Source of the DNA: Sulfuricella sp.
GTDB lineage: Bacteria > Pseudomonadota > Gammaproteobacteria > Burkholderiales > Sulfuricellaceae
Assembly: GCA_023266195.1 (NCBI GenBank)
Contig: JAHFRP010000017.1
Location: 1-36,743 of the forward strand
Reading direction: 5' to 3'
Length of the DNA stretch: 36,743 bases
The notes beneath the pieces are model-generated. The model did not search any database, had not been told where the DNA came from, and saw only the letters and a list, made by a program, of their open reading frames with translations. The position numbers and the translations under genes were made by a program. Every line of letters starts with the position of its first letter. The stretch's first letter is position 1. Shown here piece after piece: positions 5,144 through 17,333 of the stretch.

Positions 5144-5632
5144 TTACTTCACTCCGCGCCAATCGGGTTGATCGAAATAGGTGGCGTAGCTTTCCAGAGC
5201 ATGAACAATCTTTTCTGCGCCATGGCGCCTGTCATCAGGACCGTTTTTCCCTGTCATGGCGTCAGCGCCGGCGATGAGTTCGGCCAGGACGAGATGGAGC
5301 ATGGCGTCTGCGTCCCGCTCCAGTTTGCAGTTTCGCAATATGAACGATATCTGGTCATTTACCTTCTGCGCCAGCGCCTGGTATTGCTGTGCAGTTGTCT
5401 CGCCGCTATGGATGGCTGGCAATTCCGTTGCCATTGCGGTGCGGATGTTGGTCATGCCTTGGCGCAAATGGCTGTCGGTAGCCCATTTCTTGCCATCGTT
5501 AAGGGTGAGCTGAGCAGGTGCGCCTTCGTTGTGGGAATGGCCATGGCCTTGCGCCAAGGCGACCTGCACGCCGGCACTCAGGCATGCGGCCAGCACTGCC
5601 GCCGCGATGGGTTGTTTATTTATTTTAAACAT
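5144..5632 (-). CDS. Small helical periplasmic protein of NO cluster
   Basis: 162 aa. The N-terminal signal peptide (KINKQPIAAAVLAACLSAG...ALA, about 1-27) is followed by a short His-rich stretch GHGHSHNEG. The rest is predicted mostly helical with one cysteine (NCKLERD). It resembles in size and placement the DnrP-like/cytochrome c'-like helical proteins seen next to NO genes, but it has no CXXCH, so no covalent heme is expected. Function is unknown. Strong ribosome site AGAAGGAG. It lies 33 bases after the NnrS-like gene and is likely in the same operon. Confidence 0.75.
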   Translation of the reverse strand: MFKINKQPIAAAVLAACLSAGVQVALAQGHGHSHNEGAPAQLTLNDGKKWATDSHLRQGMTNIRTAMATELPAIHSGETTAQQYQALAQKVNDQISFILRNCKLERDADAMLHLVLAELIAGADAMTGKNGPDDRRHGAEKIVHALESYATYFDQPDWRGVK

Positions 5633-5665: not shown

Positions 5666-6748
5666 TCACTTTTTCGCCACATAAAATCCACGGATCACGC
5701 TGGTTATGGTGCTCAGGATAAACAGAGCCAGCGCCGCTGCATTCAATAACCCGCCCATGCTACGCAGGTACGGCAGGGCCAGCCCGTCACCGCCGAGGCG
5801 TATGACCAGTGACGCGTGCAGCGCCAGCAGCGGCAGGTAAAAAGTCCAGTGATAGGGTATCTTAACCCGAACAACCGAGGGGAAAATGATCGGTGCGTGG
5901 CCGAAAATCATGGAAAATACGAAACCGATCAGAATGGCGTGCAGCACCGCATCATAAGCCGCTCCAGTCAAGCTGCCGGCGGAAAGCAGAATCAGCCCCC
6001 CTGCCGCAAGCCATGCGTAGCCAGACAGCAGGCATACAGCGATGAAGCGGGGCAGCCCTTTTTCCTTCACCGTGCGGCGCGCAATGTCCTGGCGCAATAG
6101 CCACAAGGCCAAGCCGAGCAGGCCTGCTCCATAGATGGCAATCCCCTGACCGGTTCCGGCAAAGAGGCTGCCGCCAGGCAGCAGGGTCAGAATCACGGTG
6201 AAAGCACGTTTGGCATTGGCCGAGGGTGGCAGGAAGCGGGTCAGCTCCAGCCGTTCGCCGGCGATGGTCAATACCAGGAAGTTGATCCACAGGGGCACCA
6301 CCCCCGGCACTGGTGTGCCGGTCAGCCATAACAGATTGCCCGTCAGCCAGCTTACTGCACCGAGAGCCATGGTGATCGTGAACAACTCGCGCTGGCGCAG
6401 AACAATCAGGGTCGACCCGGTGAGAAGTATGGCGCTTCCCAGTGCCATGCTTGCGGCGCCCAGGACTTGCGGGAATCCAAGCAGAGTAATGAGCCCTCCC
6501 AGTCCAGTCAGCATCGGACCGGCATAGGCCCAGCGGCGCCCCAGGGCAACCGCGCGCTCCAGTCCGATAACGGTGCCGAGGAACCCCGACACCATCAGTG
6601 GGCCATGGAGTAGCGCCAGTTGCGCCGAGGGGAGCGGTACGGCCAAGCCAAGTCGCAGCAGTCCAGCCCCCGCCCCGGTGGTTAGGGAGATGACCCCCAG
6701 AATAAGGATGGGAATGCGGAACGGAACGCCCAGATCGCCGGGTCTCAT
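5666..6748 (-). CDS. NnrS-like polytopic membrane protein
   Basis: 360 aa, almost entirely hydrophobic with about 11-12 membrane segments. Conserved His-containing helices (LLHGPLMVSGFLGTVIGLERAVAL; AVLHAILIGFVFSMIFGHAP) resemble the NnrS family, heme/copper membrane proteins that lower NO stress. I chose the ATG at 6748 since GGAG lies 8 bases upstream; an upstream in-frame start at 6805 would run inside the DUF2249 gene. The gene starts 15 bases after the DUF2249 stop, so the two are probably translated from one mRNA. The exact family name is less sure than the topology. Confidence 0.75.
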   Translation of the reverse strand: MRPGDLGVPFRIPILILGVISLTTGAGAGLLRLGLAVPLPSAQLALLHGPLMVSGFLGTVIGLERAVALGRRWAYAGPMLTGLGGLITLLGFPQVLGAASMALGSAILLTGSTLIVLRQRELFTITMALGAVSWLTGNLLWLTGTPVPGVVPLWINFLVLTIAGERLELTRFLPPSANAKRAFTVILTLLPGGSLFAGTGQGIAIYGAGLLGLALWLLRQDIARRTVKEKGLPRFIAVCLLSGYAWLAAGGLILLSAGSLTGAAYDAVLHAILIGFVFSMIFGHAPIIFPSVVRVKIPYHWTFYLPLLALHASLVIRLGGDGLALPYLRSMGGLLNAAALALFILSTITSVIRGFYVAKK

Positions 6749-6762
6749 GGTTCTTTCTCCGC

Positions 6763-7017
6763 TCAGGAGCAGCATGCCGCGACGCGGCCAATGCGTACTT
6801 TCCATACGTCGGGGCCTTCTTCCAGATATTCCCAGCTGAACTCGCCGCCGTGCTCCGCCTGGAATTGATAGTAAAGCGGCTTGGGGTCATGGTCGTTGAC
6901 CAAAAGCAGGGCTTCGTCCCGAGCCAGGCTGGAGAAGGTGCCGAAAATTAGCGGATGCCGATTGCGCGGAGCAATGGTGCGGACATCGACGATGGTTTTA
7001 TCTGTAACAGTAGTCAT
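6763..7017 (-). CDS. DUF2249 domain protein
   Basis: 84 aa, a single DUF2249 domain. Family hallmarks are visible: RHPLIFGTFSSLA followed by EALLLVNDHDPKPLYYQ (about 20-52) and the closing DVWKVRIGR. The C terminus ends in a vicinal cysteine pair (AACCS). DUF2249 proteins recur beside hemerythrins and NnrS in denitrifiers and are thought to take part in NO or redox handling, but no reaction is proven. Ribosome site AGGAAAAC before the ATG. It sits between the Fe-S factor gene (9-base gap) and the NnrS-like gene. Confidence 0.88.
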   Translation of the reverse strand: MTTVTDKTIVDVRTIAPRNRHPLIFGTFSSLARDEALLLVNDHDPKPLYYQFQAEHGGEFSWEYLEEGPDVWKVRIGRVAACCS

Positions 7018-7026
7018 GATGTTTTC

Positions 7027-7380
7027 CTAATCGTGGGTTGGTTTTTCAGTCGAGTCGGGCGATGCCTGGCCCCATCCGAAATGTTGACGCGCATGCTCGG
7101 TCATCTTGTCCGGACTCCATGGCGGGTCCCAGACCAGATTGAGGTCGATTTCGACGCCCTCGGGTGCCAGCGATTCCAGGATTTCCCGAGCATCATCGAG
7201 GATCAGTTCCCCCATCGGGCAGGCCGGCGTAGTCATGGTGAGATCGACCTGAAGCTTGTTGTCCAAAATTTTTACGCCATACACCAGGCCGAGATCGACA
7301 ATGTTCATCCCGACCTCGGGATCGATAATGCTGCGCAAGACCGTACGAACTTCTTCCTCGCCGGGCATAGTTGTTTCCAT
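7027..7380 (-). CDS. MIP18/PaaD/SufT-type metal-sulfur cluster factor
   Basis: 117 aa from the ATG at 7380. The whole protein is a MIP18-family (DUF59) domain: IIDPEVGMNIVDLGLVYGV near the N terminus and the conserved cysteine in TTPACPMGE. The tail carries VWDPPWSPDKMTEHARQHFGW, typical of the SufT-like branch. Such proteins help mature Fe-S proteins, so here it may repair NO-damaged clusters (inference from context). Start is uncertain: ATG 7380 and ATG 7368 are both possible; an upstream in-frame ATG near 7428 would run into a terminator-like hairpin. Confidence 0.85.
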   Translation of the reverse strand: METTMPGEEEVRTVLRSIIDPEVGMNIVDLGLVYGVKILDNKLQVDLTMTTPACPMGELILDDAREILESLAPEGVEIDLNLVWDPPWSPDKMTEHARQHFGWGQASPDSTEKPTHD

Positions 7381-7418
7381 GGGGTGCCACTTTATCCATT
7401 GCCTGGGCATAGGGTAGA

Positions 7419-7456
7419 AGCCGCCCATCCTTGGGGGGGGGGAGGATGGGCGGCTT
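7419..7456 (-). terminator. Hairpin with G10/C10 loop between operon genes
   Basis: Long inverted repeat: GCCGCCCATCCTT (about 7420-7432) against AGGATGGGCGGC (about 7444-7455), with a loop of ten consecutive G (7433-7442). On the minus strand it follows the triple-repeat protein gene. Only a short TTC follows the stem there, so it may be a partial terminator or mRNA-stabilising hairpin and not a full stop. On the plus strand it is followed by TTTGTT. Confidence 0.6.
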
Positions 7457-7482: not shown

Positions 7483-7842
7483 TTAATTAACGTGGGCCGA
7501 GCAACTCGGAGTGTTGAAGCTCCAGTCGGCGCAGGCCAGTTGCTGTTTGGCAGCCGGGCCGGCCGCGGATGCAGTGCTGGCGGGAGCCGCATTCGTCTTC
7601 TCAATGTTGGCTGAGCAGCCTGGAGCGTTAAAGCTCCAGTCCGAGCAGGAGGCTAGTTGCTGTTTATTGTACTGGCCCGCGCTGGCCGGAGCCTTGTGGG
7701 TATTCTCGATGCTCGCCGAGCAACCTGGGGTGTTGAAGTTCCAGTCGGAGCAAGACAGGCCATCGCTATAGGCGGACTTGGCCGACAGGGCCGCGAGTCC
7801 GATGAATGCCACTGCCAAGGTCGATGCAACTTTGTTTTTCAT
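7483..7842 (-). CDS. Small exported protein with three CX9C repeats
   Basis: 119 aa, not recognised as any family I know. Residues 1-26 form a signal peptide (MKNKVASTLAVAFIGLAALS, then AKSAYS). The mature part holds three copies of the motif C-[SA]-D-W-[NS]-F-N-[TA]-P-[GS]-C-S-A, with cysteine pairs 31/41, 66/76 and 104/114. Repeats are 35-38 residues apart, joined by Ala/Pro/Ser/Gln/Lys linkers. All six cysteines of the mature protein lie in the repeats. The gene has a sigma-54-type promoter (7915-7930) and diverges from a PAS-type sigma-54 activator. It is first in the operon that leads into the Fe-S factor, DUF2249 and NnrS-like genes. Metal, cluster, heme or disulfide chemistry is possible; none is shown. 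Confidence 0.82.
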   Translation of the reverse strand: MKNKVASTLAVAFIGLAALSAKSAYSDGLSCSDWNFNTPGCSASIENTHKAPASAGQYNKQQLASCSDWSFNAPGCSANIEKTNAAPASTASAAGPAAKQQLACADWSFNTPSCSAHVN

Positions 7843-7914: not shown

Positions 7915-7930
7915 AGCCAGAACCGTGCCA
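7915..7930 (-). promoter_or_regulatory. Sigma-54 (-24/-12) promoter
   Basis: Minus-strand TGGCACGGTTCTGGCT matches TGGCAC-N5-TTGCW except one base, with the obligatory GG-N10-GC spacing (GG at 7929-7928, GC at 7917-7916). The start site would be near 7904, giving a ~60-base leader to the exported-protein gene at 7842. A sigma-54 activator gene is divergent, as expected. Confidence 0.75.
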
Positions 7931-7988: not shown

Positions 7989-8036
7989 CAATCGTTCACA
8001 GTAAACGTTAATTTATGCGTTTATTGTGAACGATTG
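7989..8036. promoter_or_regulatory. 19-bp inverted repeat, probable activator site
   Basis: Left arm CAATCGTTCACAGTAAACG (7989-8007) and right arm CGTTTATTGTGAACGATTG (8018-8036) are complementary in 18 of 19 bases, separated by an AT-rich 10-base spacer. The centre lies about 108 bases upstream of the predicted sigma-54 start site, an ordinary enhancer distance, and 32 bases before the activator's own ATG. It could therefore serve both enhancer binding and self-repression. If transcribed it would also form a hairpin before the activator start. Confidence 0.7.
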
Positions 8037-8044
8037 GCGTAATC

Positions 8045-9406
8045 ATGATGACGATTCCCATGCTCAAGATGTTTCTGGATAGCCTGGAAGAAGGGGTGCT
8101 GTTTCTGGACAAAAACCGGAAGGTAATGGCGGCTAACCGGGCAGCAACGCAGATGATCGGATATGAAGACGGGAACCTGGTTAATCTGCTATGCCCCAGC
8201 ATCTTCAAGGGGACGGAGTGCGCGCAGTCTTGCGAGAAACGGGGGAGTTGCGCGCTGACCCCAGACTGGAAGGCAAGCGATATCATTCAGGATATCGTGT
8301 TGCAGCGGTCGGGCAATACAGCTGTTTTTCTGCGAATGTGGGCCATATTGCTTCCGCCGTCTGAGAGCGTGCCATTGTATTGCGCGATTATCTTGCGTGA
8401 CCGCTCGCATGAGGTGGAACTGGAGCAGGAAGTGACGGAACGCATGCAACTCGGCAGCATGGTTGGCCACGGCCCGGCGATGCAGAAACTCTATTCACAA
8501 ATACTGCGGGCAGCCCAGAGCGACGCCAATGTTCTGTTGACGGGTGAAAGCGGAACAGGAAAAGAGCTGGTCGCCAAGGCATTGCATGATAGTTCGGGTC
8601 GTTGCAAAGGGCCTTATGTTCCGGTGCACTGTGCTTCGCTACCAGAGAACCTTCTCGAATCGGAATTATTCGGTTATGCCAAGGGCGCTTTTACTGGCGC
8701 GACATTGGCAAAAATTGGCCGGTTCGAGGCGGCCGAAGGAGGAACTTTGCTGCTGGACGAAATCGGCGAAATTCCTCTGGGTACGCAAGTGAAGTTGTTG
8801 CGCGTATTGCAGGAACGAGAGGTGGTGCGATTGGGCGAAAATCATGCCCGTCCGGTCGATGTTCGCGTCATCGCGGCGACGCACCGAAATCTGGCTGCCA
8901 TGGTTGAGCGTGGTGAATTTCGGGAAGACCTCTATTACCGGTTACGAGTCCTCCCTTTGCATGTTCCTGCCCTGCGTGACCGAAAGGAAGACATTCCAAT
9001 GCTTGCCGGTAAGTTGCTTAACGATCTGGGAGGCAGATACAAGCGTGACAACATGAGGCTTGCCCACGAGACCGTGCTTGCTCTGGAGGCCTACGATTGG
9101 CCGGGAAATATCCGCCAGTTGTTCAATGCGCTTGAATATGCATTAGTGAATGCGGACGGCCCGAACATTCTGCCGCCGCATCTTCCACCGGAGGTCCAAT
9201 CGATATCGCAGACCGCGGTGGATGCAGGATGGCCCGAGCCATTGCTGGTGCGGCCATATTACCGCCGCCCCCAGCAGGCAGAAAACGAATTGGAAGTCAT
9301 TGCCCGTGCGCTTGCCGAAACGGGAGGGAACAAGGCTGAGGCTGCGCGCAGATTGGGGATGTCGCGCACTAGCTTATGGAAGCGGCTTAAGCGGAACCAC
9401 AGTTGA
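8045..9406 (+). CDS. PAS-type sigma-54 activator (NorR-like position)
   Basis: 453 aa. The N-terminal PAS-like domain (about 5-120) has a cysteine set C50, C59, C63, C69 (CX8CX3CX5C). The AAA+ domain (about 138-370) has Walker A GESGTGKE (167-174), the sigma-54 contact loop GAFTGA (214-219) and Walker B GGTLLLDE (232-239). A Fis-type helix-turn-helix closes the protein (about 415-450, [20 protein letters not shown]). It occupies the place of norR, but NorR has a GAF sensor with non-heme iron; this one has PAS plus cysteines, so an Fe-S, heme or thiol sensor is inferred. A putative target promoter and enhancer lie just upstream. Confidence 0.92.
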
Positions 9407-9578: not shown

Positions 9579-10577
9579 TTACCCATGGCGCGCAGGCGGG
9601 GTCTTGAGGGTTTTGATCTGCGGTCCAGGCTGGTAGCAATAGGCGGGGATTTCGTCATGGTGGCCAAAATCGCGTGCCGATTTGTCCAGCGCGCACTCAT
9701 GCTCCACCCATTTCAGCAGGGTACCTTGCGGATTTTTCGTCTGCACCTGGCTGCATGCCTCGGCGCACTGGCCGCACTGGGTGCAGGCGAACATGTGGCG
9801 CTTGATGGTGCGTGGCTTGAGGCGCATCGGGCAGACATGCTCACAGGCTGCATTGCAGGCGGCACAGGTTTCGGCGCGGCGGCGGTCGAAGCCGATTACC
9901 AGCGCCTTGCGGTTTCCCATCCAGGCGAGTGACTGGAACAGGCCGATGGCGCAGCCGAAGCGGCAGAACAGATGTCGGGCGAACATGAATTCGACGAAGA
10001 AAATGATGGTGCCGGCAGTCAGGAAAATGGCCTGATTACGCGTCACGGCGCCGTGCCAAAGATTGCCGTAGATTTCCGCCGGAGGCAGAAGGTAGGTAAG
10101 CAGTGTTGTGGCCCAGGCGAACGCGAAGGCCAGCGCCAGCGGCACCACCGCGAGCCAGTACCAGGGATTCGCACGGGTGACGCTGCCGTCGGCGTTGCGC
10201 TCCGGTATCTTGTGTTTGTCCCAGATGCTTTGCTTGGCTGTGGCGCGGCGCAGCACGCCATTGACGGTTTCCACCACCGAGAAATGCGGGCACAGCCAGC
10301 CGCAGTAGAGTCGGCCATATTTCCACGAGACCCACACGCCGGTCGCTATGACGCCGAGGATCGGCAGGCCGCCGCGCAACATGATATTGATTCCCGCTTC
10401 GGTGGCGCCGATGCGGTGCGCCAGGAAATCGTCCAGCCCCAGCGTCCAGTGCAGGCCAAGGAAGAAAAAGTGCTTGACGTTCAAATCGAGCCGGAATAGG
10501 TCGAATACCGGCGCCAGCACGAACAGGATGAAGAATCCGGCCTGGAACAGCAGGCGTTTTTGCTGCGTGCTAATCAC
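9579..10577 (-). CDS. NapH/NosR/CcoG-like membrane ferredoxin
   Basis: 332 aa from the GTG at 10577. About five or six membrane segments are followed by a cytoplasmic ferredoxin part. Cysteine motifs: YCGWLCP, CRFGC, then CAACNAACEHVCP and CTQCGQCAEAC, the last two able to bind two 4Fe-4S clusters. This architecture is known in NapH, NosR and CcoG electron-transfer or copper-reduction proteins. The GTG overlaps the stop codon of the preceding membrane-protein gene and has GGGAAG upstream; the longer reading from 10646 is less likely. Its role in the nor operon may be electron delivery or metal reduction for NorCB maturation (inference). Confidence 0.82.
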   Translation of the reverse strand: MISTQQKRLLFQAGFFILFVLAPVFDLFRLDLNVKHFFFLGLHWTLGLDDFLAHRIGATEAGINIMLRGGLPILGVIATGVWVSWKYGRLYCGWLCPHFSVVETVNGVLRRATAKQSIWDKHKIPERNADGSVTRANPWYWLAVVPLALAFAFAWATTLLTYLLPPAEIYGNLWHGAVTRNQAIFLTAGTIIFFVEFMFARHLFCRFGCAIGLFQSLAWMGNRKALVIGFDRRRAETCAACNAACEHVCPMRLKPRTIKRHMFACTQCGQCAEACSQVQTKNPQGTLLKWVEHECALDKSARDFGHHDEIPAYCYQPGPQIKTLKTPPARHG

Positions 10578-10971
10578 AACGTCTTCCCAGCAGCGGATAC
10601 ACGTATTTCTGCCCGGCCAGCGCCTTGGCCAGCCCGAGTACGCCAAGCAGCACCAGGGTGGAGTGGCAGGTGGTGAAGTAGAGAATTACGATGACCCAGG
10701 TGGCGGGTGCGGAATAACCGCCGAGCAAAATGATCAGGATATTGGCAAATATCAGCAGTGCACCCGCCCACAGGCTGGCGCTGATCGCCTGGCGCAGGTG
10801 GCAGACGGCAAGCGTCGGCGTGCCGGCTGCGCGTCGCGAATATAGCCAGAGCAGCGCCAGGAAAGCCAGGCCCGGCGCCAATAACAGATTGGCGAGATAC
10901 AACGTTTCCGCCCAGATCGCGAGGGCTTGACCCGGGATGGGGGCTCCCGCATTATCTGCCGAAGCTGGCAT
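10570..10971 (-). CDS. Small membrane protein between norQ and ferredoxin gene
   Basis: 133 aa with about three membrane helices (ALAIWAETLYLANLLLAPGL; ISASLWAGALLIFANILIIL; TWVIVILYFTTCHSTLVLLG). I do not recognise the family. A His/Cys pair occurs in AVCHLRQA and TTCHSTLVLL, both near membrane borders, which could bind heme or copper. It overlaps the end of norQ by about 20 bases and the start of the ferredoxin gene by 8, so translation is coupled and a role with those two is likely. Start ATG 10971; TTG 10977 is an alternative. Confidence 0.75.
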   Translation of the reverse strand: MPASADNAGAPIPGQALAIWAETLYLANLLLAPGLAFLALLWLYSRRAAGTPTLAVCHLRQAISASLWAGALLIFANILIILLGGYSAPATWVIVILYFTTCHSTLVLLGVLGLAKALAGQKYVYPLLGRRCD

Positions 10972-11734
10972 GGACAATTTCCATCAATGCGTCGGCGGTT
11001 TCCTCATCGTCGGTGAGGGTTTCCACCATGGCCGCGCGGCATGCCTCGACCGGGTTGAAGCCGCTGCCGATCAGCGTAGCGGCGTAGACCAGCAGACGGG
11101 TGCTGGCGGCTTCCTCCAGGTCATGTTCCTTGAGCGCACGCAGGGCGTTGGCGAGGTTGACCAAGCGCTTTGCCAGCATCGCGTCGGCGCCGGTCTCACC
11201 GACGAGAATTTCCTGTTCCAGCGCACTTTCCGGAAAGTCGAAGCGCAGCGAAACGAAGCGCTGGCGCGTGCTGGGTTTCATTCCCTTGAGGAAATTCTGG
11301 TAGCCGGGGTTATACGACACCACCAGCATGAACTCGGGCGGAGCCTGAAGGATCTCGCCGGTTCGCTCGATCGGCAGGATGCGCCGGTCGTCGGATAGCG
11401 GGTGAAGCACGACGGTGGTGTCCTTGCGCGCCTCCACCACTTCGTCCAGGTAGCAAATGCCGCCCTCGCGCACCGCGCACGACAGTGGGCCGTCGCTCCA
11501 GTAGGTCACGCCGTCGCCGATCAGGTGGCGACCGACCAGGTCTGCGGCGGTCAGGTCGTCGTGGCAGGCCACGGTATAGAGCGGCCGGTTAAGTTTTGCC
11601 GCCATGTGCGCGACGAAGCGCGTCTTGCCACAGCCGGTCGGTCCCTTGATCAGCAGCGGCAGCTGGTTGCGGTAGGCATGCTCGAACAACTCGGTTTCGT
11701 TGCTGTGCGGTTTGTAAAAAGGTAAGTTGCTCAT
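10952..11734 (-). CDS. norQ: NorQ, MoxR-type AAA+ ATPase for NO reductase
   Basis: 260 aa, standard CbbQ/NorQ size. Walker A GPTGCGKT (31-38) and Walker B ICYLDE (93-98) are intact. The segments DLTAADLVGRHLIGDG and VVSYNPGYQNFLKGMKPSTR are typical of NorQ. With NorD it forms the chaperone system that activates cytochrome c-dependent NO reductase. An exact FNR/DNR-type box lies 67-80 bases upstream, inside the end of norF, so norQ may have its own promoter. Ribosome site GGAA before the ATG. Confidence 0.93.
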   Translation of the reverse strand: MSNLPFYKPHSNETELFEHAYRNQLPLLIKGPTGCGKTRFVAHMAAKLNRPLYTVACHDDLTAADLVGRHLIGDGVTYWSDGPLSCAVREGGICYLDEVVEARKDTTVVLHPLSDDRRILPIERTGEILQAPPEFMLVVSYNPGYQNFLKGMKPSTRQRFVSLRFDFPESALEQEILVGETGADAMLAKRLVNLANALRALKEHDLEEAASTRLLVYAATLIGSGFNPVEACRAAMVETLTDDEETADALMEIVHASFGR

Positions 11735-11796
11735 TTTTCCGGCCTGAAAGTTAACCCGATTTGGCTACGGGTAGCCTAATGGATGGTTGGGTGGAA

Positions 11797-12078
11797 TTAA
11801 TTGATCCCCATCAAATATGCGGCCGCGATCATGCCGCCAACGATGATCAGGTAGCCGCCCATGATCGCCCGCCATAGCAGGCTGGTCTTGCGCAGCCCCA
11901 TGAAGAAGCCGGCGATCATCTGGCCCTTGAGCAGGGTGATGGCGAGCACCAGCAGCATGACGTTGCGCCCGCCCAGGCCGGCGTCGCCGATCGAGTAGGT
12001 GACGCCGGTCAGCGCGATCAGGGTAAGCCAGATCAATGTACAGGGGCGGACGAAACGGGGTTGGGAAGGTTTGTTCAT
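11797..12078 (-). CDS. norF: NorF-like cytochrome oxidase subunit IV protein
   Basis: 93 aa with three membrane helices and the COX-IV pattern (ITLLKGQMIAGFFMGLRKTSLLWRA in the middle helix and loop). NorF supports full NO reductase activity but is not catalytic. Its start overlaps the region just after norE (4-base gap) with AGGTGA as ribosome site, so it is coupled to norE. Its last codons carry an FNR/DNR-type box, see separate entry. Confidence 0.85.
   Translation of the reverse strand: MNKPSQPRFVRPCTLIWLTLIALTGVTYSIGDAGLGGRNVMLLVLAITLLKGQMIAGFFMGLRKTSLLWRAIMGGYLIIVGGMIAAAYLMGIN
11801..11814 (-). promoter_or_regulatory. FNR/DNR-type box upstream of norQ
   Basis: TTGATCCCCATCAA, an exact TTGAT-N4-ATCAA dyad, overlapping the last codons of norF. 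The centre is 73 bases upstream of the norQ ATG. At the usual -41.5 position the transcript would start near 11766, leaving a ~32-base leader. The -10 would be TAGGCT (3 of 6), so promoter strength is uncertain. Confidence 0.6.
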
Positions 12079-12082
12079 GGCA

Positions 12083-12673
12083 TCACCTGATCACGTAAAC
12101 CAGCGGAAAGAGAATGATCCACACCAGATCCACCATGTGCCAGTAGGAGGCGCCGGTTTCGACGCCGGTGTGGTGTTCGATACTGTAGCCACCGCTCCTG
12201 GCCTTGGCCATGACGAACGCCAAAATCACCATGCCGAGGATGACATGCATGAAATGGAAAATGGTGAGCGACAAATAAAACATGTAGAAGGTATTGGTGC
12301 TGAGCGAAATTCCCGCCGAAAACTTGGCGTGGAACTCGAACAGCTTGATGACGATAAACACGCCGCCCAGCGCGATGGCGGCGCCCAGCCAATTGGCGCA
12401 CTGCCGGGAAAGCCCCTGCTTGATCGCGGCAACGGCGCGCACCACGAAGTAGCTGCTGGTGATCAGCACCAGCGCATTGACGGCGCCCGATGCACGGTTG
12501 AGCATCAACTGCGACTGGTTGAATAGTTCGACGTTATGGGCGCGGGCAAAGGCATAGGAGCCAAAGAAGATGCCGAACGCCAGCAATTCGGCGAAGATGA
12601 AAAACCAGATCGCCAGGTCGCCTGGGGGGGTGCCCGGTTCGTGGGCGTCGATGGTCAAGCTTTGAGTAGTCAT
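12083..12673 (-). CDS. norE: NorE-like heme-copper oxidase subunit III
   Basis: 196 aa with five membrane helices typical of cytochrome oxidase subunit III (DLAIWFFIFAELLAFGIFF; SYFVVRAVAAI; FYMFYLSLTIFHFMHVILGM; GASYWHMVDLVWIILFPLVY). The E in FIFAELLAF and H in FHFMHV and YWHMVDLVW are family hallmarks. NorE is an accessory of NO reductase. A terminator-like hairpin separates it from norB, so it may depend on readthrough. No good Shine-Dalgarno is seen before ATG 12673. Confidence 0.9.
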   Translation of the reverse strand: MTTQSLTIDAHEPGTPPGDLAIWFFIFAELLAFGIFFGSYAFARAHNVELFNQSQLMLNRASGAVNALVLITSSYFVVRAVAAIKQGLSRQCANWLGAAIALGGVFIVIKLFEFHAKFSAGISLSTNTFYMFYLSLTIFHFMHVILGMVILAFVMAKARSGGYSIEHHTGVETGASYWHMVDLVWIILFPLVYVIR

Positions 12674-12769
12674 TGTCAGTTTGCCAAGATATTGCGGTTC
12701 GACGAGCTATTCTAGCCCTTGCCGGCCGCGGATAATACTGGATAAAAAAACTCGGGTATTTGGGGTCAA

Positions 12770-12797
12770 AAAAGGGAGGGGCGCACCCCTCCCTTTT
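12770..12797 (-). terminator. Terminator between norB and norE
   Basis: Perfect 12-bp stem AAAAGGGAGGGG (12770-12781) / CCCCTCCCTTTT (12786-12797), 4-base loop, followed on the minus strand by a T run (complement of the A run 12768-12773). It lies 7 bases after the norB stop. It should limit norE-norF expression relative to norCB. Confidence 0.85.
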
Positions 12798-12803
12798 CAA
12801 GCC

Positions 12804-14207
<1,404 letters not shown>

Positions 14208-14223
14208 TCAGGGTGACCAAAAA

Positions 14224-14655
14224 TTAACCCTCGATGTTCGGCGGCCAGTTATTGGTGTTGATTTCGCCGGTCCATTTCAGGAATGCCACCATGTCGTCCA
14301 GTTCCTGGTCGGTCAGGTTGAATTGCGGCATCTGGCGGCGGTTGCCCGGTGTGCCCTCGGCCGGACGGCTCTTGATCCAGGCCTTGACGAATTCTCCGCC
14401 GCGGCGCTTGTAGACGTTGCCCAGTTCCGGTGCGTAGTAGGCACCTTCACCCAGCAGGGTGTGGCAGCCGATACAGTCGTTTTTCTCCCATACGTTCTTG
14501 CCGCGGGCTACGGCATCAGTGATGTTCTCACGATGGTCGCGTTTCGGCAGGACCTGCATGGTGTCGAAAGACAAGGCGACAAGGAGCAGGAAGAAAAATG
14601 TCGCTCCCCCGAAAAAAATGTTGCGCGCCATTGACTTGGTAAATGCTTGGCTCAT
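14224..14655 (-). CDS. norC: Nitric oxide reductase cytochrome c subunit NorC
   Basis: 143 aa. One N-terminal membrane anchor (about 12-30) and a periplasmic cytochrome c domain with heme motif CIGCH (61-65); M109 in RRQMPQF is the probable sixth ligand. It passes electrons from periplasmic cytochromes to NorB. Perfect GGAGG ribosome site 7 bases before the ATG. The upstream region has an FNR/DNR-type box, an NsrR-like dyad and a C10 tract. Confidence 0.97.
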   Translation of the reverse strand: MSQAFTKSMARNIFFGGATFFFLLLVALSFDTMQVLPKRDHRENITDAVARGKNVWEKNDCIGCHTLLGEGAYYAPELGNVYKRRGGEFVKAWIKSRPAEGTPGNRRQMPQFNLTDQELDDMVAFLKWTGEINTNNWPPNIEG

Positions 14656-15716: not shown

Positions 15717-16037
15717 CGGTTGACGTGACTGTTTATGTTCTGCGGCATCGCCATAAACCGTTCTGGGCGCGCCAATTAAACGTCGTTCACGCGAAACCGG
15801 CGATGACAAACCGGAGTAAATCGGCGTTTCCCCAGAGAAGCGCCGATTAAACGTCATTCCAGCGCAAGCGGGAAGCTGTATGCCGCTGGACATACTGGAT
15901 TCAAGCTTGCGCCGGACTGACGAAACCGGAATAAATCAGCGCCTTCCTGGCGGCGAATTCGCTCGCATGGAAGCAATCGATTGTGCGAACAAATTCGCAC
16001 CTACAACTTCACCAACTGCGTTTCTAGGTTCAACCTC
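15717..16037. repeat. Intergenic repeat region (REP-like palindromes)
   Basis: 321 bases without a gene. A pair of related units: GCCAATTAAACGTCGTTC (15771-15788) and GCCGATTAAACGTCATTC (15842-15859), each followed by a GCG-rich stretch and an AAACCGGNRTAAATC segment (about 15812 and 15924). A 17-bp inverted repeat with two mismatches, GTCATTCCAGCGCAAGC (15853-15869) / GCTTGCGCCGGACTGAC (15905-15921), is typical of extragenic palindromes scattered in proteobacterial genomes. The last ~60 bases hold nothing clear except the ribosome site of the next gene. Confidence 0.65.
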
Positions 16038-17333
16038 ATGAGTTTGCAACCCGGCCTGTCTTTCGACCAGGCGCCGCCAATCCTGGTGCCGTTCCGTTTT
16101 TTTCTGAGCGCGCCCCTGTTCGGCCTGCTCGCCGCGCTGCTGGCGTTGTGGTTCGGTCCCGCGCTGCTGGACAGCCGCTGGCAGCCGGCGGTGCTGGCGT
16201 GGACCCACCTGATGACGCTCGGTTTTCTCGGCATGGCCATGGTCGGTGCGATGATGCAATTGCTGCCGGTGATGGCCGCATCGCCGGTTGCGCATCCGGT
16301 CGGGGTGGCGCGCACCGTGCATGGGCTGCTGCTGCCCGGCGTCATATTGCTGGTGCTGGGCTTCCTTCTTGCCAGCCATTGGCCGATGCGCCTGGCGATG
16401 GCGTTGCTGGGCACGGGGTTCCTGGTGTTCGTGGCGGCGGTGGGGGAAAGTTTAAAGCGCGCCTCCTCCGCCAATCCGACCGTGGTCGGCATGCGGTTCG
16501 CGGTGATCGGGTTGGTCGTTACCGCGGCGCTCGGTTTGACGTTGGCGAGCAACTACGGCTGGGGCTGGTGGCTGACCGATCGGGTGACCGTGACCAACCT
16601 CCATCTGTCGTGGGGTTTTCTAGGTTGGGTCGGCATGCTGGTAATCGCGGTTTCCTACCAGGTGGTGCCCATGTTCCAGCTTACCCCCGCTTATCCCAAA
16701 ATGGCCGCGCGCTGGCTCACCGGTGCGTTGTTCATGCTGCTGCTGTTGTGGTCGGCAACCCGGTTGTTGCCGGAAGAAATGCGGGACAAGGGATGGCTGG
16801 CGATAGGGTTGCTTGCCGCGGCGGGCTATGCCGGCTATGCGATTACCACGCTGCGCCTGCAGTTGCAGCGCCGTCGCAAGCAATCCGACGTGACGCTGTT
16901 GTTCTGGCGTTTTGGCATGGTGTGCCTGTTGTTGGCATTGGCCGCCGGCGTCATGCGGCAGGCGATGCCGCTCCTGGTGGACATCCAGGGCAATAACTTC
17001 GCGCTGGCCTTCCTGTTCATCGCCGGCTTTGCGGTGTCGGTCGTCAACGGCATGCTCTACAAGATCGTGCCGTTCCTGATCTGGTTCCATCTGCAAAGCC
17101 GGTTGATCGGTGTGGCGAAGGTGCCGAACATGAAACAGATCATGCCCGATGCGGGCATGCGCCGGCAGATGTGGCTGCATTTCGCGGCGGTGCCCGTGCT
17201 GGTATTCGCCGCGTTGTGGCCACCGCTGATCTATCCGGCGGCGCTGTTGTTCGGCGCTTCCATGGTGTTGCTGGAGTGGAACCTGATCTCGGCCTATAAC
17301 GTTTACAGAAGAAATATCAAGCTGGTAAGCTGA
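16038..17333 (+). CDS. NnrS/COX1-like 12-helix membrane protein
   Basis: 431 aa, about 12 membrane helices. Helix pair AWTHLMTLGFLGMAMVGAMMQLLPVM and NLHLSWGFLGWVGMLVIAVSYQVVP hold His residues in the positions where the relative at 19599-20729 has AHIHLALAMGVMPLIVGAMSHFVPVL and LHLHLNTVGFIGLTAIATLQVLLP, so the two look homologous. Such proteins occur near NO genes and resemble heme-copper oxidase subunit I or NnrS. Heme or copper binding by the conserved His is inference. ATG 16038 chosen because of AGG upstream and the leader peptide-like nonsense before it. A TauD-like gene follows after 37 bases. Confidence 0.75.
   Translation: MSLQPGLSFDQAPPILVPFRFFLSAPLFGLLAALLALWFGPALLDSRWQPAVLAWTHLMTLGFLGMAMVGAMMQLLPVMAASPVAHPVGVARTVHGLLLPGVILLVLGFLLASHWPMRLAMALLGTGFLVFVAAVGESLKRASSANPTVVGMRFAVIGLVVTAALGLTLASNYGWGWWLTDRVTVTNLHLSWGFLGWVGMLVIAVSYQVVPMFQLTPAYPKMAARWLTGALFMLLLLWSATRLLPEEMRDKGWLAIGLLAAAGYAGYAITTLRLQLQRRRKQSDVTLLFWRFGMVCLLLALAAGVMRQAMPLLVDIQGNNFALAFLFIAGFAVSVVNGMLYKIVPFLIWFHLQSRLIGVAKVPNMKQIMPDAGMRRQMWLHFAAVPVLVFAALWPPLIYPAALLFGASMVLLEWNLISAYNVYRRNIKLVS

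Follow-up and report, generated by a model that had tools for sequence, protein, structure and literature searches.

A small, patchy family of exported-looking cysteine-loop proteins in Sulfuricella and other Proteobacteria, with a sigma-54-type promoter and nitric oxide genes nearby in one of its types

The 36,743-nucleotide stretch of Sulfuricella sp. DNA analysed here (the window, taken at its full length) carries a gene for an exported-looking repeat protein of 119 amino acids which, judged from ORF, motif and profile evidence, belongs to a real, small and patchy family of exported-looking loop proteins, present in a few Proteobacteria, Sulfuricella-like and otherwise. The family protein is previously undescribed, and no description of it was found in the open literature searched. 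In one type of member, type A, a conserved sigma-54-type promoter occurs together with nitric oxide (NO) genes nearby, for which reason the loop protein may be a new helper for living with NO; sigma-54-type control and the NO context are well supported by the sequences compared.

The window protein and its repeat units

The window gene (7483..7842, type A) lies on the minus strand, a detail absent from the initial annotation. As that annotation had claimed, three repeat units follow a signal peptide, which is judged here by eye and from alignment (signal-peptide-like region at 7765..7842). The units, likewise on the minus strand, are CSDWNFNTPGCSA (unit 1, 7714..7752, residues 31-43), CSDWSFNAPGCSA (unit 2, 7609..7647, residues 66-78) and CADWSFNTPSCSA (unit 3, 7495..7533, residues 104-116). 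By eye, the likely cleavage falls ahead of D27 (A-Y-S / D-G-L-S-C), which would leave a mature chain of approximately loop-linker-loop-linker-loop and little else, with unit 1 starting at about the fifth mature residue and the chain ending three residues past unit 3. A lipobox right after the hydrophobic stretch was not seen by eye, the cysteine of G/D-L-S-C lying some 10 residues beyond. All six cysteines (6/6) sit inside the three C-x-D-W-x-F-N-x-P-x-C units, which bears out the earlier statement that every mature cysteine belongs to a repeat, and in 200,000 shuffles of the mature window residues not even one such unit was obtained. No named family had been known for this protein, and neither Pfam (best score 19.6, cutoff 26.2) nor NCBIfam (best 17.9, cutoff 180) provides a model above its curated cutoff. 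The best hit of a PDB profile search was chance-like (E 0.16), and two AlphaFold2 predictions gave no usable fold (pLDDT 46 and 52).

Two types of family member

Type A comprises the window gene and four further loci, designated G005, L038, L043 and L049, and extends across about three genera. The genes at L038, L043 and L049 have three units each, and that of G005, from the same genus as the window, encodes within a window-like operon a 46-aa form with one unit, consisting of a signal peptide and one loop and nothing more; its interpretation as a three-unit gene shortened by a stop was rejected, as no further repeat lies past its stop. Type B comprises a paralogue in the window's own genome (contig C8), whose three units have C-x13-C or C-x14-C spacing with D-W-G-F-N, and a gene in another Sulfuricella (G001); the member at L050 is also of type B. 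The genomes of L038, L043, L049 and L050 gave one motif match each, and no second family copy was seen in them.

The comparison of these members qualifies two earlier statements. The CX9C repeats that had been described hold in type A, but the spacing is, on the genes compared, not general to the family, because it is C-x13-C and C-x14-C in the type B paralogues. The W, F, N and P that had been called invariant are so within the window's three units, but among the 13 type A units compared across five genomes strict invariance is confined to both cysteines, D, F and the final A, with W (12/13), N (12/13) and P (11/13) close to it.

Relatedness is supported by profile cross-tests, which were run at Z 4000 and in which the best shuffle never exceeded 13.7 bits. 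With the window protein left out of its construction, a profile recovered that protein at 113 bits (E 1.4e-33; best of 200 shuffles, 8.2 bits), and the corresponding left-out-member profiles recovered L038, L049 and L043 at E 7.1e-34, 5.8e-33 and 8e-33. The type A profile reached type B at E 1.1e-16 and 4.1e-15, and the type B profile reached four type A proteins at E 9.3e-12 to 4.4e-6, with the window protein weakest. In the pooled repeats of the four three-unit type A genes pS is 0.755 and pN 0.148, values drawn from six pairs of four genes that are not independent and several of which are saturated at synonymous sites; in the sole type B pair dN/dS is about 0.14 in the repeats and about 0.32 in the linkers. 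It follows that the units are conserved at the protein level, under stricter constraint than the linkers, and the selection on the repeat unit that had been suspected is thus found as purifying selection. The initial annotation had also staked itself on homologues with conserved repeats existing elsewhere; these were found, so this half of its refutation test does not refute it.

Distribution

The family is rare and patchy in the partial genome samples searched, by a pattern that would miss members with every unit altered as well as by profile. At the DNA level, D-W-x-F-N-x-P-x-C gave 10 matches in 3/22 family genomes (reversed control 0), and a same-class scan of 369 genomes returned the own genome plus a single other place, interrupted by a stop, against one place for the control. 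A motif scan of 84,980 species genomes returned 25 stretches, among them four members (L038, L043, L049, L050); the other 21 were set aside, since in 18 a lone motif sat in an unrelated or short frame and in three (L039, L053, L057) no open frame crosses the motif. A single-protein peptide-pattern scan of species genomes yielded 61 stretches and no confirmed member, its exact 8-residue patterns being too narrow. In viral contigs none of 14 pattern stretches was confirmed, and plasmids gave no match.

By profile, six of 399 genomes of the order matched, three truly (G000, G005, G464), with one relic (G055) and two dismissed; among 99 relatives of G464 there were five matches, two of them true (G464, G777), with the same relic and two dismissed; among 60 relatives of G779 there were two, G779 itself and one dismissed; and among 398 genomes of the phylum the own genome alone was matched. 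The L038 locus is taken as genome G777 and the L049 locus as G464, the match places being the same. Weak profile matches in G045 and G431 were dropped after their frames were read, and G841 was dropped alongside G045, with which it shares identical coordinates and score. The remaining weak or strong matches among 16 genomes (G000, G001, G005 and G055 apart) contain no W-x-F-N-x-P-x-C unit, and L017 is a chance frame with W-R-F-S-P-P-V-C. The G055 sequence is a degenerate two-unit relic and was kept apart from the true members; it follows, at L068, a frame-broken copy of an HExxH lipoprotein-like gene. A gene of that kind adjoins type B in L033 (7057-7890, this copy having no Pfam match) and also, judged by eye, in L035.

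Promoter and upstream palindromes

Upstream of the window gene, a sigma-54-type -24/-12 site, TGGCACGGTTCTGGCT (7915..7930, minus strand), starts 88 bases before the start codon and matches 11 of 12 scored positions, a score that none of 2000 shuffles reached. A GG-N10-GC site matching 10 or 11 of 12 positions lies 81-88 bases before the start in 5/5 type A genes; the share of 2000 shuffles that did equally well is 0.0005 for L049, 0.0015 for L038, 0.002 for G005 and 0.0055 for L043. Farther upstream, a pattern scan placed two palindromes, GTTYANNNTRAAC, at 7994..8031 (7994-8006 and 8019-8031, no strand assigned), which are candidate activator sites; the window holds no further match, and a pair of matches never arose in 100 shuffles. 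If one mismatch at most is allowed, such palindromes start at 158-164 bases before the start in all five type A genes and are doubled at 184-189 in three of the five, counts which taken alone are weak for L049 (p 0.051) and L043 (p 0.065). Of six genomes, G000 and G005 each have a single copy of the long double site in its exact pattern, which was not found in G001, G464, G777 or G779. Neither of two type B genes has such a palindrome, and their sigma-54 sites are poor (8/12 and 7/12; p 0.12 and 0.25).

The gene had been described as the first after a sigma-54 promoter. The site is there, but only at the two loci from Sulfuricella (window and G005) does the gene stand at the head of an operon, and the constant features of type A are its own promoter and palindrome.

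Gene neighbourhoods

On the minus strand, the window gene precedes Fe-S maturation and DUF2249 genes, as had been proposed: a FeS_assembly_P (PF01883) protein (7027..7428, E 2.9e-19) and a DUF2249 protein (6763..7017, E 3.6e-32). Next come a hydrophobic membrane-protein-like ORF of 379 aa (5666..6805), kept in L034 and in L075 (L038), and an exported-looking protein of 162 aa (5144..5632) without a Pfam family at E <= 1. The label NnrS-like, given earlier to the 379-aa ORF, finds no backing in Pfam, the ORF having no family at E <= 1 and none at E <= 0.01 in trimmed form. A second hydrophobic membrane-protein-like ORF lies near NO genes at 15981-17333; neither of the two has a Pfam match, and they do not match each other. 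A Fer4-type protein and a nor-like cluster, assigned by Pfam and synteny, occupy 9579..14655 (minus strand), the cluster consisting of NorQ, COX4-like, COX3/NorE-like, COX1/NorB-like and cytochrome c/NorC-like genes.

The peptide and Fe-S genes have between them a very stable RNA hairpin (7418..7456, minus strand) with a 14-bp stem, an 11-nt loop and a z of -6.1. Its loop holds a long C run (a G run on the plus strand), and a terminator scan, which takes loops of 3-8 only, found none there. The annotated FeS_assembly_P ORF start overlaps the hairpin, and the true start is probably later, because the match with G005 starts from residue 16. With a strong hairpin between the peptide and Fe-S genes, one full-length operon mRNA is not assured, and output of the window peptide may exceed that of the downstream genes. 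The z-scores behind the remaining type A genes are weaker (G005 -1.0, L049 -0.4, L043 -3.4, L038 -2.9), so that a strong hairpin is not a constant feature.

The G005 locus is syntenic with the window as far as NorB, the end of the compared stretch, and nor genes adjoin type A in three loci: window, G005 and L049/L069. The 18-kb stretch L069, from the L049 genome, holds the peptide, the activator, norQ, E, B and C homologues and a VWA protein that is NorD-like by position, and is without the FeS, DUF2249 or 379-aa gene. At L038/L075 an Rrf2 gene, NsrR/RirA-like and below both NCBIfam cutoffs, is divergent from FeS, DUF2249 and 379-aa homologues and the peptide, the last with its own promoter. 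At L043, type A is near nirS (NirS, Cytochrom_D1, E 1.1e-149) and a TonB receptor gene, and FeS_assembly_P and DUF2249 genes were not found in the stretch. No NO gene was recognised among the type B neighbours; type B being also without the promoter, the loop as such may be unrelated to NO.

The divergent activator

Facing the window gene on the plus strand (8045..9406) is a protein of PAS - sigma-54 AAA+ - Fis-type HTH architecture, identified with Pfam and NCBIfam and by alignment. Against the NCBIfam NorR equivalog it scores 330.5 bits (cutoff 476), and residues 126-450 alone match. Its PAS domain (window 8045-8458) has four cysteines, C50, C59, C63 and C69 (C-x8-C-x3-C-x5-C), which are invariant in 8/8 aligned homologues. 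Cys-bearing PAS domains are known, and the four-cysteine PAS is a possible Fe-S or redox/NO sensor.

The initial annotation had suggested looking for a shared neighbourhood with PAS sigma-54 regulators. In three loci type A is indeed divergent from such an activator, but none was found in the peptide-bearing G777 (77% complete) and G779. Among 61 relatives (E <= 1e-10) the PAS sensor occurs in two, G000 and G005, the same two with type A in this set; among a second set of 56 genomes it occurs in seven, the peptide-bearing G000, G005 and G464 together with G785, G790, G798 and G805, in which no peptide was found by profile. With four genomes having the activator without the peptide and two having the peptide without the activator, the pairing is partial.

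Five activator loci were read in the four peptide-less genomes. At one of these (L089, G790:C5) the activator is divergent from two tandem exported-looking proteins of 102 and 98 aa, which are alike and do not belong to the loop family, and a sigma-54-type site and a GTTCATAGTGAAC palindrome precede the pair. The other four, two of them cut off close by at contig ends, show no loop protein or like arrangement. As the L089 activator faces an unrelated pair, the regulator need not mean loop-protein function.

Proposed function and alternatives

The reading we favour, with a rough probability of 0.45 for the whole explanation from family to protective role, is that of NO-linked, sigma-54-switched, exported loop mini-proteins. 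The family would consist of exported mini-proteins with one or three 11-residue cysteine-bracketed loops, C-S-D-W-S-F-N-x-P-G-C, joined by flexible Ala/Ser/Thr/Pro-rich linkers. Type A would be switched on through its dedicated sigma-54-type promoter and upstream palindromes, presumably bound by the divergent PAS protein as the likely activator; its four invariant cysteines might harbour a sensor of Fe-S or redox/NO type, with NO as the putative signal. The protein would be exported by Sec, and in the periplasm its cysteine pairs would probably close as disulfide loops, giving a string of binding loops that may protect or serve the nitrite/NO-respiring machinery or mop up NO-derived or metal-NO species. 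A more specific version combines a cysteine-PAS (possibly Fe-S) sigma-54 NO sensor with an exported loop protein forming a periplasmic NO/iron-binding or redox adduct, that is, a secreted modular NO buffer with its capacity tuned by loop number (1 or 3); we regard it as a long shot.

The alternative that survives best, although unlikely, is the initial annotation's periplasmic thiol trap, whose reduced cysteines would either capture NO, forming S-nitrosothiol or dinitrosyl iron, or else bind copper or heme; an Fe-S trap and a thiol sensor had been named there as further candidates. The NO-gene neighbourhood and the placement of every mature cysteine in conserved units are consistent with such a trap, but paired periplasmic cysteines usually oxidise, no conserved His or Met was found in the family proteins, and the cysteine spacing differs in type B; moreover, the invariant D, F and A and the nearly invariant W, N and P exceed the needs of a bare thiol sink and argue for a shaped recognition loop instead. 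Decidedly unlikely is a secreted peptide precursor, from which the loops would be cut out to act outside the cell as signal or antagonist, the repeat number setting the dose. The occurrence of one or three repeats, with a G005 form reduced to signal peptide and loop, the variable linkers and the HExxH lipoprotein-like gene beside type B (in L033; by eye in L035 and at the G055 relic) point in that direction, but the linkers share no cleavage motif by eye, no exporter or modifying enzyme was recognised among the neighbours read, a subset of which was scanned, and no peptidase was recognised beside type A.

We hold equally doubtful the view that the product is an envelope protein under sigma-54 control for general redox or nitrogen stress, with NO genes merely co-travelling in clusters. 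It would agree with the activator type facing unrelated exported-looking proteins in one of five loci read, and with the general link of sigma-54 to the cell exterior set out in excerpts of a published study (PMC3162934), but a nor, nirS or NsrR/RirA-like context accompanies 5/5 type A loci, with neighbours that differ. That the gene is a spurious or decaying ORF is hardly credible, for the rarity and patchiness of the family and the degenerate G055 relic would suit it, but type A, kept across about three genera under purifying selection and with a promoter, contradicts it.

Significance and comparison with known systems

For the favoured NO-linked loop mini-proteins, the named motif, its promoter architecture and the genome set provide the means to probe a role of an exported protein when bacteria handle NO. 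The mature one-loop Sulfuricella peptide, of about 20 residues if cleaved as proposed, would be small enough for synthesis and direct study of its disulfide, metal or NO chemistry, and the four-cysteine PAS would add a further candidate NO or redox sensor.

The twin CX9C proteins of the mitochondrial intermembrane space have C-x9-C motifs in a helical hairpin closed by two disulfides. Type A shares the C-x9-C spacing, but the family differs in having single cysteine pairs on long linkers and Pro inside, and the conserved C-x9-C spacing of twin CX9C proteins is not found in type B (C-x13-C / C-x14-C). The DUF2249 gene, which we take to correspond to COG4309, and the FeS_assembly_P gene are both present in the window operon, as companions only. 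According to excerpts of a study of NO regulons (PMC1274295), COG4309 is reported within the NnrR and NsrR regulons. In the same excerpts, NorR-type regulons combine an activator with adjoining NO genes and with tandem inverted-repeat sites that precede a sigma-54 promoter (PMC1274295). The window shares with them, as there described, the tandem inverted repeats, the sigma-54 promoter and the adjacency of NO genes; it differs in its sites, GT-N9-AC in place of the GT-N7-AC given there, in its sensor, a PAS domain with four cysteines, and in its target, an exported-looking protein of no known family.
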